A stretch of 42,639 nt of DNA, taken from positions 1-42,639 of the IMG/VR virus record IMGVR_UViG_3300037069_002054. One strand, written 5' to 3'. The position numbers and the translations under genes were made by a program. This document shows positions 2,776-42,427 of this stretch, in pieces; positions within the stretch are counted from its first letter, which is position 1, and each line of letters opens with the position of its first letter. The notes under the pieces were generated by a model that did no database searches, was not told where the DNA came from, and saw only the letters and a list, made by a program, of their open reading frames with translations. This DNA is from a virus.

Positions 2776-2828
2776 AACAGTTTCGTTCTTTTGAACTCAT
2801 CAGGGAAAGCGCACACTTTCCGACTGTT
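2776..2828 (-). ncRNA. type III hammerhead self-cleaving ribozyme
   Basis: All invariant hammerhead positions are present in the leftward RNA, in order. Stem III 5' strand AACAGU (2828-2823). Cleavage-site nucleotide C17 (2822), preceded by GU, giving the preferred GUC triplet. Stem I GGAAAG (2821-2816), loop UGUGCG, CUUUCC (2809-2804). Core CUGAUGA (2803-2797). Stem II GUUC, loop AAAA, GAAC (2796-2785). Core GAA (2784-2782). Stem III 3' strand ACUGUU (2781-2776). Stems I and II are closed by loops and stem III is open, which defines type III. Every base pair is Watson-Crick. Cleavage is expected between 2822 and 2821. It lies between the early promoter and the first leftward gene. Confidence 0.93.
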
Positions 2829-11928: not shown

Positions 11929-13002
11929 ATGCTAAACATTAACAAAATACAAACAGCTTTATCGGGATTAGTGGGGTTTAAAAACCCCTACAATCCTGAT
12001 TATGCTATTGTAGATGCGACTAATGTTTTAAGTGAAAGCGGATATTTTGTAACCGACAATTCTTTTGCGAAAATCGAATACATCAAGGATAATCAAGATT
12101 ACCTTAAAATATCGGACGTGGATTTCAACAAACTGTTGACAGATATAAAGAAATCAGCAATATCAAATGTTTGTAATCGAGTATTTTCGGAATATGACTT
12201 CTTAGATAGAAATGTCATGTATAAAAATGCCAGCAATAAAATAAATACTGAGGGACTTCCTTTGGGATTCGTTGGGTATAAAATTGAAGTTGGAGCCGAA
12301 AAGAATATTGCATTTAAGATTAACCGTGTTTTATTGGATTTTGATGGTATAGGTGAAATTAAATTGTTGTTGTGGAATACAGCTAAAAAAGCAGTATTAC
12401 TTCAAAAAACAATTGAGATAACCTCAGACCATCAAGAAGTTGTTTTAGAATGGACAATCGACAATACATTGACCACTTACAAGGGAGATTATTATATTGG
12501 GTACAACACAACGGATATTACAGTAGTTCCTTTCAAGAGAGAATTAGGAAATTCGGATGTAATATCTACTATAAAATATCTTTGTTTTCAAAAGGTTTTT
12601 GTTTCAAATCATGCTACAGAAGAATTATTCGATATTAATAAAATCGAAGGATTATCAACTGCTACTGGATTGAATTTCGATATTTCTGTTTTTGATGATT
12701 TTACTGATTTCGTAATAAACAATAAAATGCTTTTTGCTAAAGCCATACAACTTGATTGCATCATTCAATGTCTTCAAATTTACATGACTTCGCTACGAAG
12801 CAATGCTAATCAATCAAATTCCAATCAAATGTATGAAAAGATTATGATTGATTTAGAAGGTACATCATCAGAAAGTTTGGTGAAGGTTAATGGATTAAGA
12901 AACCAATTATTAGGTGAGATTACCACCATTAAGGAGGAAATTAAAAAAATGAAAGTTGGGTTTTCAAAAAGCAGACAATTTATGGTTAATACCCTTCAAT
13001 AA
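11929..13002 (+). CDS. virion structural protein, probable head-tail connector with beta-sandwich insert, 357 aa
   Basis: Starts one base after the capsid stop. The N-terminal segment (residues about 30-90, KISDVDFNKLLTDIKKSAI) is helical, like connector or adaptor proteins. Residues about 115-205 look like a beta-sandwich module (GEIKLLLWNT, EVVLEWTIDN and KGDYYIGY) similar in feel to carbohydrate-binding or jelly-roll domains. The C-terminus is helical (GLRNQLLGEITTIKEEIKK). Head completion or neck decoration is inferred from position. Confidence 0.6.
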   Translation: MLNINKIQTALSGLVGFKNPYNPDYAIVDATNVLSESGYFVTDNSFAKIEYIKDNQDYLKISDVDFNKLLTDIKKSAISNVCNRVFSEYDFLDRNVMYKNASNKINTEGLPLGFVGYKIEVGAEKNIAFKINRVLLDFDGIGEIKLLLWNTAKKAVLLQKTIEITSDHQEVVLEWTIDNTLTTYKGDYYIGYNTTDITVVPFKRELGNSDVISTIKYLCFQKVFVSNHATEELFDINKIEGLSTATGLNFDISVFDDFTDFVINNKMLFAKAIQLDCIIQCLQIYMTSLRSNANQSNSNQMYEKIMIDLEGTSSESLVKVNGLRNQLLGEITTIKEEIKKMKVGFSKSRQFMVNTLQ

Positions 13003-38887: not shown

Positions 38888-39319
38888 TTATTCTTCTGTT
38901 CCAGTTTTTCTAATAGACTGAAAAATATTCCCTTGTAGTTCATCTGCATAAGCTGGACGGCTTTCAATCAATTCTCCGTTCTCGTTGTAAAATCCAACTT
39001 CCCTACTTTCTGCATCTACAAATTTAAAACAACGCTCTGTAACATTTTCTGCTTTGTTTTTTAAACCTACTAAGATTTCTTTCTTTTCTACTATCAAAGG
39101 TTTTAGCGTATCACTAAATTCTTTTACAGTTTCTTTCTTCTGAACTTCGAGGTCATTAATTTGAATTGACAACTCAGAAAGAGATTCTTTCTTTTTCAGT
39201 ATTTGGTCGGGTGTAAACCGCTTCATGTAGCTTTTTTGTTCTACTGTGTCGCAGTTGTCGTTCAGAAAATTAATTCTGTCTTGTGGACTTAAAATGTCCT
39301 TACCTAATTCTCTTTGCAT
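38888..39319 (-). CDS. coiled-coil hypothetical protein, 143 aa
   Basis: Residues about 40-95 form a long coiled coil (SELSIQINDLEVQKKETVK). The C-terminus has FVDAESREVGFYNENGEL. May help assemble the recombination proteins around it; no known family. Confidence 0.65.
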   Translation of the reverse strand: MQRELGKDILSPQDRINFLNDNCDTVEQKSYMKRFTPDQILKKKESLSELSIQINDLEVQKKETVKEFSDTLKPLIVEKKEILVGLKNKAENVTERCFKFVDAESREVGFYNENGELIESRPAYADELQGNIFQSIRKTGTEE

Positions 39320-39348
39320 AAAAAATGGATTTATACCCTATTGGGCGG

Positions 39349-39714
39349 TTAAAAAATACTTGTTTGATTTTTGTTTTTAATAGAATTAGATTGTTGCTTA
39401 AGTCTAAATTCCATTGAAATCCATGACCTCATAGGGCGGGCATGGCATATAGGGTTTTTTGAATATGTCCAATCCTGCTTAAATATCAATCCTGCTTTTG
39501 AAAGCTTAAAGAATATGGAGCCAAAAATTCGTGGTTCGTGCGGAGGTTTATTGCCAGCATCATAATATGCTTTTTTAAAATCTTCCGAAGTAAAAGCCTT
39601 AAATTGAGTTTTTACCCACCCACAAGCGAATAGAAAACAATCATCATGATAACTCTGATTGTTTTCTTCCACTTGCTCGATTGCTTTTTTCATGGAATCG
39701 AATTGGCTTTTCAT
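39349..39714 (-). CDS. hypothetical protein, winged-helix-like, 121 aa
   Basis: The core FACGWVKTQFKAFTSEDFK, AYYDAGNKPPHEPRIFG and FFKLSKAGLIFK is of a type common beside phage exonucleases. The helix-helix-strand order resembles a winged helix that binds DNA. The C-terminal Asn/Lys tail is disordered. Role unknown. Confidence 0.65.
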   Translation of the reverse strand: MKSQFDSMKKAIEQVEENNQSYHDDCFLFACGWVKTQFKAFTSEDFKKAYYDAGNKPPHEPRIFGSIFFKLSKAGLIFKQDWTYSKNPICHARPMRSWISMEFRLKQQSNSIKNKNQTSIF

Positions 39715-39715
39715 A

Positions 39716-40492
39716 TTACATGATTATTATACCAAATCTTCCAAAAGCTTCTTCTTTTGAAATCGCAGGTAAAATTTCAGCCCAATCGCCATTTCGGAAA
39801 ACATCAAATCCAAAATTCAAAGCACCATCAATATCCAATACTTTTCGGCTTGTTAATAAACAAGGTTTCCCATCATCAAGTCCTTTTATGTAAATACCTT
39901 CTTTATAACCTCTTTTCTCAGCCTCAGAAATCATAAAAGGCTCAACATCTTTAAGAGAAGCTCTAATGTCATCTTTTGTTATTGAAACAGGAACAAATAA
40001 TTCTCGATATGATTTTGTCAATGGTGTAAAACCATAACACGAAAAGCCGAATACCTCTTTGTCGAATTTTTCTTTAGGACAATAAAATCCACCCATTGGA
40101 GTTTTCATCCATTGTCCGATTTCTAATTTAGGCTCAAGGACTTTCGGAAACCATTCTTTAAGAAGGTAATCGATTCTTTCTTTGTGAAGGGTGTTTTTAA
40201 GTTCTAATATTTGTTCTTTGGTGATTTCAAACTTTTCATCAACTTTAATATCACAAGCTTCCAAAAATACACGTTCGTCCCATGTTTCGTGGATTTCATC
40301 AATACCTTCCCATGCGAACTTAAACCCATATTTAGCGATTGATTCTATAGAAAAGTCTTGACCAGTATAATTTATTAAATAAGGGTATGTATCAAAATTT
40401 GAGAGGTTTTTAGTTTTTATGATACTTCCAGCCAACTTCTGCTTAATCATTTCAAACTGTTTTTGTGTGCATTTCATTGCGATTGCTTTCAT
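39716..40492 (-). CDS. hypothetical protein, 258 aa
   Basis: Alpha/beta protein without a recognised family: MKAIAMKCTQKQFEMIKQK, GIDEIHETWDERVF, FGFSCYGFTPLTKSYREL. It lies between the exonuclease and the winged-helix-like gene and could be an accessory of recombination. The stop abuts the next start by one base. Confidence 0.65.
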   Translation of the reverse strand: MKAIAMKCTQKQFEMIKQKLAGSIIKTKNLSNFDTYPYLINYTGQDFSIESIAKYGFKFAWEGIDEIHETWDERVFLEACDIKVDEKFEITKEQILELKNTLHKERIDYLLKEWFPKVLEPKLEIGQWMKTPMGGFYCPKEKFDKEVFGFSCYGFTPLTKSYRELFVPVSITKDDIRASLKDVEPFMISEAEKRGYKEGIYIKGLDDGKPCLLTSRKVLDIDGALNFGFDVFRNGDWAEILPAISKEEAFGRFGIIIM

Positions 40493-40512
40493 AGTTTTTT
40501 TTGTTAAAGTTA

Positions 40513-41391
40513 TTATTTAATCATGTTTAAAGAAATAGTTTTATAGTATTCCAATCCTAATTTTGCTTTGGAAACTAATTTTTGGTATTTCTCTTTATCC
40601 CTATAAAAAACAAATGTTTTAATACATTCTTCTCTTTTTATTTTAGGATTATTTGAGTAAACTAAATTTTGTTCAATTTGGTCATAAATAGGTTCCATTG
40701 CTCTTTCAAACGCATCCAATTCTTCGGGATTCATATCTCCTGAATAGTACTTCCATTTTTCCAAATCTTTTTCTCTTTGTACTAAATGTTCAGGAGTATC
40801 AACTAAACAAAACTTTAAATGAAACTCATCTGCATCCCATTGTTCCATATAAACAACACCTTGTATTTCATTATCCAATGATGGTTTTGCGTTTATAAAT
40901 GTTTCAGCATCCCAACAAGTTTTAGTATCGATAACAATCTTTTTAAGACCAAAGTCTTTAAAAATATCACATTCTCCAGTAAAGAACTCATTTTCTCGTC
41001 TTTCTTCATTTTTTGAATAGGCGATGTTTTCAACTTCGGTCAGTAAAGTTATTGATTCTTCTTCCTGAAATAAACCTTTGTCTAAGAATTTTGATTTAAT
41101 GCTTTTGACAATTCCTTTTTCATATTTAAGCCAAACTCTTTTAATGTAGTTTTTTGCTGTATCAGAAAGTTCAGGAGTAGCATCACGTTTAGTAATTAAT
41201 TCCTCCAATTCAGAAGGTTTTAAAGTGCCTTCCCATTTTACTTTATTTCCATTTTTGTTTATTCCAGTATCACGTTCAGAAATTAATTCTTCAACTCTTA
41301 ATTTATTTACTTCTGTAAATTCAGTTCCTTTTTTTTCAGTCATTAAAGAACCTGCTGAACTGGCATTGAATAATATTTTTTTTGCTTCCAT
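40513..41391 (-). CDS. PD-(D/E)XK exonuclease (YqaJ/RecE type), 292 aa
   Basis: The PD-(D/E)XK core is visible: FFTGECDIF (Asp142) and KIVIDTKTCWD (Asp155-x-Lys157), with a downstream EIQGVVYMEQW helix like the Q-containing motif of the YqaJ/Cas4-like family. The first 100 residues are helical. It would resect DNA ends for the annealing protein encoded upstream (41394-42119), the classic lambda Red/RecET pair. Adjacent, 2 bases apart. Confidence 0.82.
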   Translation of the reverse strand: MEAKKILFNASSAGSLMTEKKGTEFTEVNKLRVEELISERDTGINKNGNKVKWEGTLKPSELEELITKRDATPELSDTAKNYIKRVWLKYEKGIVKSIKSKFLDKGLFQEEESITLLTEVENIAYSKNEERRENEFFTGECDIFKDFGLKKIVIDTKTCWDAETFINAKPSLDNEIQGVVYMEQWDADEFHLKFCLVDTPEHLVQREKDLEKWKYYSGDMNPEELDAFERAMEPIYDQIEQNLVYSNNPKIKREECIKTFVFYRDKEKYQKLVSKAKLGLEYYKTISLNMIK

Positions 41392-41393
41392 TT

Positions 41394-42119
41394 TTAAAGT
41401 TTTTCTAAGTAGTCAATAAATCGTTTATAGGCTTTTACTTGTTTATTATCTATTACAGATTGAATAGTTTTAAAGTCGTGGGATTGGATTTTAGCCTCTT
41501 TTTCAGAAAACAACTTAGTTAGTAATTTCAAATTAAATTCGTCCTTATTAACCACCTTTTCGCTAAAAACTAAAATATCCTCTAAATCTTCATCCCTGTT
41601 TATATTAGCACCAAATAAATTACCCAACCTTTTAGCACCGTTTTTAATCGCTCTTGAGTAAGCACTACCTACAGCTAATTCTAAACCGTTGAATTTCATT
41701 GTAGAATTGAAAGTGTCAATAGATGCTCCTTTATCCTGTTGGATTGCTTTGGCACCAATTCCGTCAACTTCTTTGTTTTCTAAAGTAATCGGACATTTAT
41801 ATCGTATCGTAGCAATAACAATAAAACTATTCAAATCTCGATAAGAATTTTTAATAGAAAAACTCACCTGTTGAAAAAACATTTGCCTTAATGATTCCTC
41901 TACAATACCAATTGGGATGTAGTTATAATCCGTTCCAAATCCAGCATTTTGACCTTTTGCAAGTAATTCAGCCTTCATGTTTTTAATCATAATAGGCTCC
42001 TGATTCAAAGCATCATTTAAAATTTTTACTTTTTTCTGTAAAGTTTCGGCTTTTTCTATTTTAGATAAAAAACTAATTCCGTCAAACTCTACTACTGTGA
42101 TTTCTTGATTTTCTTCCAT
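41394..42119 (-). CDS. single-strand annealing protein, Rad52-like
   Basis: 241 aa. YIPIGIVEESLRQMFF, then LNSFIVIATIRYKCP and LAVGSAYSRAIKNGAKRL suggest the Rad52/Sak-like superfamily of single-strand annealing proteins: a beta-beta-beta-alpha core with a conserved AYSRAIKN helix. It pairs complementary strands after resection by the adjacent exonuclease. An ERF-type protein is the near alternative; either gives the same role. Confidence 0.75.
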   Translation of the reverse strand: MEENQEITVVEFDGISFLSKIEKAETLQKKVKILNDALNQEPIMIKNMKAELLAKGQNAGFGTDYNYIPIGIVEESLRQMFFQQVSFSIKNSYRDLNSFIVIATIRYKCPITLENKEVDGIGAKAIQQDKGASIDTFNSTMKFNGLELAVGSAYSRAIKNGAKRLGNLFGANINRDEDLEDILVFSEKVVNKDEFNLKLLTKLFSEKEAKIQSHDFKTIQSVIDNKQVKAYKRFIDYLEKL

Positions 42120-42136
42120 TTTATTTGTGTTGTTAA

Positions 42137-42358
42137 TTAAAAAGGGTTTTTTTGTTTTTGTATTATTTCAATATGATTATTAATATCTGATTTTTTATAA
42201 AATTTAGCAGCGATAAAATAACCGACCGAACCTCCATTTTTAGTACATTTTATAATTCTACCAGTTTGGCAGTTTATTACTTTTTTACAAGTACTTATTT
42301 TATAATAAGGATAATCTTTGAACTGCCATTTTACTGTAAAATTTACCTGTACAATCAT
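42137..42358 (-). CDS. conserved hypothetical protein, 73 aa
   Basis: VNFTVKWQFKDYPYYKISTCK, KVINCQTGRIIKCTKNG and VGYFIAAKFYKK are typical of a small family common in flavobacterial phages, resembling the NUMOD4-like DNA-binding fold of homing enzymes only in part. Possibly DNA binding. Confidence 0.7.
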   Translation of the reverse strand: MIVQVNFTVKWQFKDYPYYKISTCKKVINCQTGRIIKCTKNGGSVGYFIAAKFYKKSDINNHIEIIQKQKNPF

Positions 42359-42427
42359 ATTCTAAAGTATTGATTTCTAATTGTTTAAAATATACTAAAA
42401 TAGCTTGTAGCCAATAGTTACCAGTAA

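Follow-up and report, generated by a model that had tools for sequence, protein, structure and literature searches.

The DNA analyzed here (the window; IMG/VR virus record, 42,639 bases) carries a type III hammerhead ribozyme on its minus strand, at positions 2828 to 2776. It lies downstream of a Bacteroidota-type early promoter and upstream of the gene that opens a leftward early operon. From the sequence evidence, we consider it probable (roughly 60%) that this hammerhead acts as a processing site separating an early non-coding leader RNA from the early mRNA. The model is based on the structure of the ribozyme, its covarying conservation, its position, the structured leader and the repeated pairing of leader and hammerhead. 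What hammerheads do for bacteria and phages can here be put as a testable claim, namely that the ribozyme releases a conserved early phage RNA. If true, this would explain why a ribozyme is retained between promoter and first gene, and it would point to new phage regulatory RNAs.

The hammerhead and its genomic setting

Read on the minus strand, positions 2828 to 2776 are AACAGU-C^GGAAAG(UGUGCG)CUUUCC-CUGAUGA-GUUC(AAAA)GAAC-GAA-ACUGUU. The core nucleotides CUGAUGA (2803 to 2797) and GAA (2784 to 2782) are present together with a GUC triplet with C17 at position 2822, in agreement with the core of Rfam family RF00008 (CUGANGA, GAA and an NUH cleavage triplet), and the three stems (I to III, with 6, 4 and 6 bp) are paired throughout. 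Since stems I and II are closed and stem III is open, the ribozyme is of type III, and its helices also show compensatory changes (see below). Cleavage is predicted between C2822 and G2821. The initial annotation had given all of these features, from the core, stems and loops to the coordinates and the cleavage site, and they stand as described, as does its statement that a random origin is very unlikely: a loose scan for core and stems found one match in the window, the hammerhead itself, against 0.05 matches in shuffled windows, and shuffled windows gave none under strict stems. The covariance search that it had proposed gave a more qualified result, since the end-to-end match to RF00008 (Hammerhead_3) has an E value of 1.5e-7 for the entire window (1e-9 for 301 nt), but its 47.7 bits fall just below the gathering score of 48.5. 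Judged by its sequence and its covariation in relatives, the hammerhead is real.

Two close relatives, L007 and L002, had the leader available. In L007, whose terminase is 98% identical to that of the window over the part present, the hammerhead carries two compensatory changes in stem I (GGAAAG/CUUUCC to GGCAAA/UUUGCC) and scores 49.7 bits on RF00008, above the gathering score. In L002, with a terminase 99% identical, the hammerhead stands at the same site with its three stems and the triplet (GUA) changed and the core intact; it scores 34.9 bits (E = 2e-5), and it was passed over by the genome-scale RF00008 scan, being found by reading the sequence and scored afterwards. The compensatory changes in L007 and the changed stems around an intact core in L002 indicate that the ribozyme has been kept under selection. 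A core not conserved in related phages had been named beforehand as evidence against the ribozyme, and it is kept in both. In an alignment of 11 sequences, 98.2% of the positions forming the 15 pairs are paired, with double-sided changes at 11 pairs and a covariation score reached by none of 500 shuffles; most of its rows come from a scan that itself requires pairing, but the window, L007 and L002 were not chosen in this way. By terminase DNA, the closest phage in culture is Cellulophaga phage phi10:1, and no hammerhead was found in the 50 kb read of it, nor in the stretches read of terminase relatives in Flavobacterium genomes (43 to 56% identical); a scan of nine further loci at the Rfam gathering score gave no ribozyme except a Pistol in L002.

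A consensus match to the Bacteroidota promoter, TTG-N19-TATCTTTG, lies at positions 2972 to 2943 on the minus strand, and its -7 box TATCTTTG is found at the same place in L007 and L002. The -7 box of flavobacterial sigmaA, TAnnTTTG, spans -12 to -5 (PMC9723704), which puts the predicted transcription start near 2938. The putative 5' leader of the processed early mRNA (2821 to 2750, minus strand) consists of the stem I hairpin, the core, the stem II hairpin and 26 nt of AU-rich sequence up to the start codon of the first gene, an ORF of 53 aa (2749 to 2588, minus strand) of unknown function and with no PHROG match. The initial annotation was right in placing the ribozyme between such a promoter and the first leftward early gene. 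The second gene, identified by ORF and homology (89 aa, 2566 to 2297, minus strand), has a homologue in L007 and L002 that is the first gene behind the hammerhead. The promoter-proximal part of this operon (2749 to 1, minus strand), supported by alignment to the relative L061 and by PHROGs, holds small ORFs of unknown function followed by an HTH regulator (271 to 501), and the operon runs across the window ends to 42358 to 31112, where PHROGs identify an exonuclease, replication proteins and NinG. Since window positions 39319 to 42422 and 253 to 1368 align in order in L061, this order joins the window ends, giving a hammerhead-led operon of about 14 kb. Genes for terminase, portal and tail are found in the rightward direction. 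The host assignment is based on the promoter type and on the Flavobacterium genomes with a related terminase mentioned above, which are the nearest bacterial relatives by this gene.

The loops of the window hammerhead, UGUGCG and AAAA, candidates for the tertiary contact that makes cleavage fast, fit a combination of loop I UGNGYG with loop II NAAA that recurs in type III hammerheads of at least 119 viral contigs, as found in an IMG/VR scan with unconstrained context whose pattern constrained stem II in part and left stem I free. Among the matches listed, stems I and II were fully paired in all 81 unique copies, cleavage would fall 50 to 85 nt 5' of the nearest open-frame ATG in 77 of them versus 17% of random positions (median, 67 nt; 72 nt in the window), and a strong hairpin lay within 40 nt upstream in 70 of them versus 17% of random 40-mers, the 81 copies being related to one another and the counts not equivalent to independent events. 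The usual order in this subfamily is stop codon, hairpin, hammerhead and start codon; the window copy keeps the normal distance to the start codon but has no upstream gene. An exact-pattern search for the subfamily gave no match in 396 sampled Bacteroidota genomes, and a hammerhead covariance model (R1) gave none among the 14 to 15 candidates scored per genome in 400 Flavobacterium and 396 Bacteroidota genomes, too few to be informative. Most of the intergenic type III hammerheads (L034, L038 and L079 to L152) adjoin a strong upstream hairpin, often without a U-run in the printed sequences, and once cleavage has occurred the mRNA from upstream would have this hairpin as its 3' end.

Leader RNA families in front of the ribozyme

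The region from the predicted start to the cleavage site (2938 to 2822, minus strand; about 117 nt) has no ATG between the start and the ribozyme and is, as its covariation supports, a structured non-coding RNA, here called family A, whose 3' end would be set at the hammerhead cleavage site. Between the window and L007 this leader is 92.4% identical, compared with 76.7 to 82.1% in the flanking regions. It contains a conserved core, AAGCAGUAAAAUAGUUA (2908 to 2892, minus strand), common to L007, L144, L150 and L193 to L196, and a conserved hairpin, AGUGUUAAGGUC-GAAA-GGCAUUCACU (2859 to 2834, minus strand), with a UU bulge, a G.A mismatch and a GNRA loop; core and hairpin together are common to six phages besides L007. 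The nine pairs of the hairpin are 100% paired in seven distinct sequences from eight phages, double-sided changes occur at five of them, and none of 500 shuffles reached the covariation score. GCAGUAAAAUARUYA and a UU-bulged, GNRA-looped hairpin are shared by the leaders of other promoter-proximal hammerheads. A further long hairpin abuts the hammerhead in six family A phages, and the window leader is without it.

Scanning by the leader sequence alone, we recovered L144, L150 and four new contigs of family A, three of which have a hammerhead at the same place; that of L196 has a mismatched first pair in stem II, as in phage PaP3. The fourth new locus, L194, has the leader and another structured element in place of the hammerhead. 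The leader of L002 is unrelated to family A and defines a second family, B. A scan by its sequence gave eight loci, seven of them with a canonical type III hammerhead 57 to 63 nt downstream and the eighth (L198) with a hammerhead that has a one-base core insertion. Since L002 has a terminase 99% identical to that of the window and yet carries a family B leader with a hammerhead at the same place, near-identical phages appear to swap the leader family and keep the hammerhead. A GUGUUSAAA-like stretch right behind the promoter begins most leaders of both families. Neither the window leader nor any of the seven scanned loci with a leader matched an Rfam family.

L198, on the same contig as L003, belongs to a phage with a terminase 86% identical to that of the window, and in the hammerhead that follows its family B leader the extra base stands between core and stem II (CUGAAGA-U-GGCUA). 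The element of L194 (2572 to 2620, plus strand) is a conserved three-way-junction RNA (AAAAAAGCCGUUCGCCUGGAGCGUGGUUAUUUGAUUAACAAACGGCAC) that occupies the slot of the hammerhead behind the family A leader; it recurs in another phage, at L204 (around 12240 to 12285, plus strand), where a stop codon precedes it and the next ATG follows. The L194 element had no Rfam match, and we regard this RNA as a candidate for an unknown ribozyme or processing site.

Possible functions of leader and ribozyme

In the reading that we prefer, host RNA polymerase would start near 2938 and first make the folded non-coding leader (about 117 nt), after which the type III hammerhead would fold and cleave itself between 2822 and 2821. 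The freed leader RNA would then end in a 2',3'-cyclic phosphate, and the early mRNA would begin with a 5'-hydroxyl and have, ahead of its first AUG, the hairpins of stems I and II and then an open AU-rich stretch. Both the 5'-hydroxyl and a stem I hairpin at the 5' terminus had already been proposed in the initial annotation, and they follow from known hammerhead chemistry. The leader would be the conserved RNA product, with the ribozyme setting both its 3' end and a fixed, structured 5' end of the mRNA. We infer cleavage, its co-transcriptional timing and a stable, functional leader RNA, which might act in trans or, on RNA polymerase, as an antiterminator in cis. Release of a leader cannot be the function of the whole subfamily, since most of its hammerheads are intergenic and without such a leader. 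The mispairing of the window leader with the hammerhead core in a thermodynamic model (see below), its missing long hairpin and the L194 leader with no hammerhead behind it speak against the reading. The leaders may instead matter only as 5' untranslated regions or cis antiterminators.

The alternative that survives best, which we nevertheless think unlikely, is that the ribozyme standardizes the 5' end of the mRNA as a natural insulator of the RiboJ kind, with the leader as a by-product. The fixed, hairpin-protected 5'-hydroxyl end would resist decay that depends on a 5' phosphate, and the start region would stay open. The distance from cleavage to start codon described above (50 to 85 nt in 77 of 81 among the matches listed, versus 17% at random) favors it, as this spacing is found with a gene or a leader upstream alike. 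It would also suit flavobacterial translation, which works without Shine-Dalgarno sequences and is tuned by mRNA structure (PMC6847099), and the engineered RiboJ acts in this way and raises expression (PMC6206723). However, the feature that the window shares with such an insulator is its position, a ribozyme between promoter and gene, and the leader covaries, is more conserved than its surroundings and belongs to one of two families that recur with a hammerhead. A mere by-product should not be conserved, and the conservation of the leader therefore weakens the idea that it is waste.

A smaller probability, which makes it a clearly doubtful option, goes to a leader that would fold on RNA polymerase and let it read through terminators along the roughly 14-kb operon; the only task of the hammerhead would then be to sever the mRNA from the leader bound to the polymerase. 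The put RNA of HK022 is a cis-acting leader that makes RNA polymerase resist terminators. The position of a structured leader right at the head of a long early operon, and unrelated leader families filling the same slot, are consistent with such antitermination, but the argument is purely inferential, and the scan of the window leader and the seven other loci gave no match to any Rfam family.

It is very improbable that the ribozyme is inactive or held off, its core paired with the leader as a gene-control switch until released. In the predicted minimum-energy fold of the window leader, both the core and stem II are engaged by UUGAGUUC/UCGG, and in a thermodynamic model the leader can mispair with the hammerhead core, the mean pair probability being 0.32 in the full leader versus 0.85 without it. 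However, shuffled leaders mispair with the core as often (21% at or below the native value), the leader of L002 leaves the hammerhead folded (probability, 0.83), the compensatory changes show selection on the hammerhead fold itself, and the energy model does not include loop-loop contacts. We rejected control of the ribozyme through leader-induced misfolding on the same grounds, as interference at least as strong was given by 21% of shuffled leaders and was absent in L002. A pairing between the 5' end of the leader and the start region, also seen in a predicted fold, was likewise discarded, since covariation between two sequences is too weak and the pairing is broken in L002. That the hammerhead is a non-functional or chance sequence, for which a score slightly under the Rfam cut-off could be cited, is negligible in view of the E value of 1.5e-7, the covariation and the strict positional conservation.

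Known systems and other phage ribozymes

Neither the class of ribozyme nor the layout in its broad form is new. The initial annotation took a hammerhead between the main early promoter and the first early gene as a layout not yet described, and this part failed, as the HF1/HF2 haloviruses carry a hammerhead ahead of the first ORF, within the 5' leader of an early polycistronic transcript, and PaP3-like phages are similar. The mapped mRNA 5' end lies at most 3 nucleotides from the cleavage site of the HF1/HF2 hammerhead, HHphage (Perreault et al. 2011, PMC3088659). The haloviruses differ from the window in being archaeal viruses with core insertions and a start codon 13 nt away, and no structured leader has been reported for them. 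The same paper lists the hammerhead of Pseudomonas phage PaP3 (Bruynoghevirus) as one of the active hammerheads whose cores vary. This hammerhead is of type III and has the loop pair found in the window (UGUGUG with UAAA or AAAA), and in PaP3-like phages the hammerhead lies directly 5' of the outermost leftward gene, gp71/orf71. In DL54 (L191; PaP3 is L192), it follows two sigma70-like promoters, and about 390 nt of unannotated leader separate the nearer promoter from the ribozyme. Unlike in the window, the first pair of stem II in PaP3 is a U-U mismatch and the start codon follows 1 to 6 nt behind the ribozyme; the leader sequence of PaP3-like phages is unrelated as far as seen, and their hosts belong to another phylum.

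Clusters of hammerheads in phages and prophages likewise place self-cleaving ribozymes between phage genes; they flank single genes and have been proposed to cut long transcripts into mRNAs of operon or gene length (PMC3088659). The window copy, in contrast, is promoter-proximal and would end a non-coding RNA rather than lie between two genes. RiboJ, which is derived from a type III hammerhead, is likewise placed between promoter and gene and removes the leader (PMC6206723), but it is engineered, has an extra hairpin behind the ribozyme and follows an arbitrary leader, whereas that of the window is conserved.

Coupling of a hammerhead to conserved structured leaders, with exchange of the leader, was not reported in the literature searched, which included few subscription journals and is not proof of novelty. 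We give about even odds to the idea that Bacteroidota tailed phages, and perhaps PaP3-like phages, have a new class of early non-coding RNA, in which unrelated families would occupy one slot behind the early promoter, would have a 3' end made by a hammerhead and would be swapped between near-identical phages. The comparison spans two unrelated leader families and many phages, and PaP3-like phages on PAO1 offer a similar layout that is workable now. As a whole, the initial annotation holds for the hammerhead and its position and does not hold for the novelty of the layout, and it overlooked the leader RNA, a second ribozyme that the operon contains and the broader subfamily of phage hammerheads.

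This second ribozyme is a Pistol at positions 1433 to 1372 on the minus strand, between ORF 1446-1838 and ORF 1213-1347. It scores 37.2 bits on RF02679 (gathering score, 34.5) and has the pseudoknot strands UUUGGA/UCCAAA and the GCGU...GGU core. A Pistol of 68.8 bits is found in L002 (6197 to 6261, minus strand) ahead of a different gene, and both would cleave about 30 nt upstream of the next ATG. Like the hammerhead, the window Pistol is predicted to cleave itself and is part of the same operon, but it is of an unrelated class and intergenic rather than in the leader. Pistol RNAs are known near phage genes (PMC4604425). Homology between the window and L002 ends beside the Pistol of the window.

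Several hammerheads were found together on other contigs, among them IMGVR_UViG_3300042884_000166 (G030, with L062 and L063) and IMGVR_UViG_3300021134_000001 (G031, with L064 to L067). One phage contig of 39.8 kb has 15 hammerheads on a single strand (14 of type I and 1 of type III), each 10 to 75 nt before an ORF start, and a second contig has 9. This looks like ribozyme punctuation of whole operons, far beyond the reported clusters of two to three copies. In 24 of the 28 type I copies, which come from five phages, the upstream frame has its stop codon within stem I or beside it.
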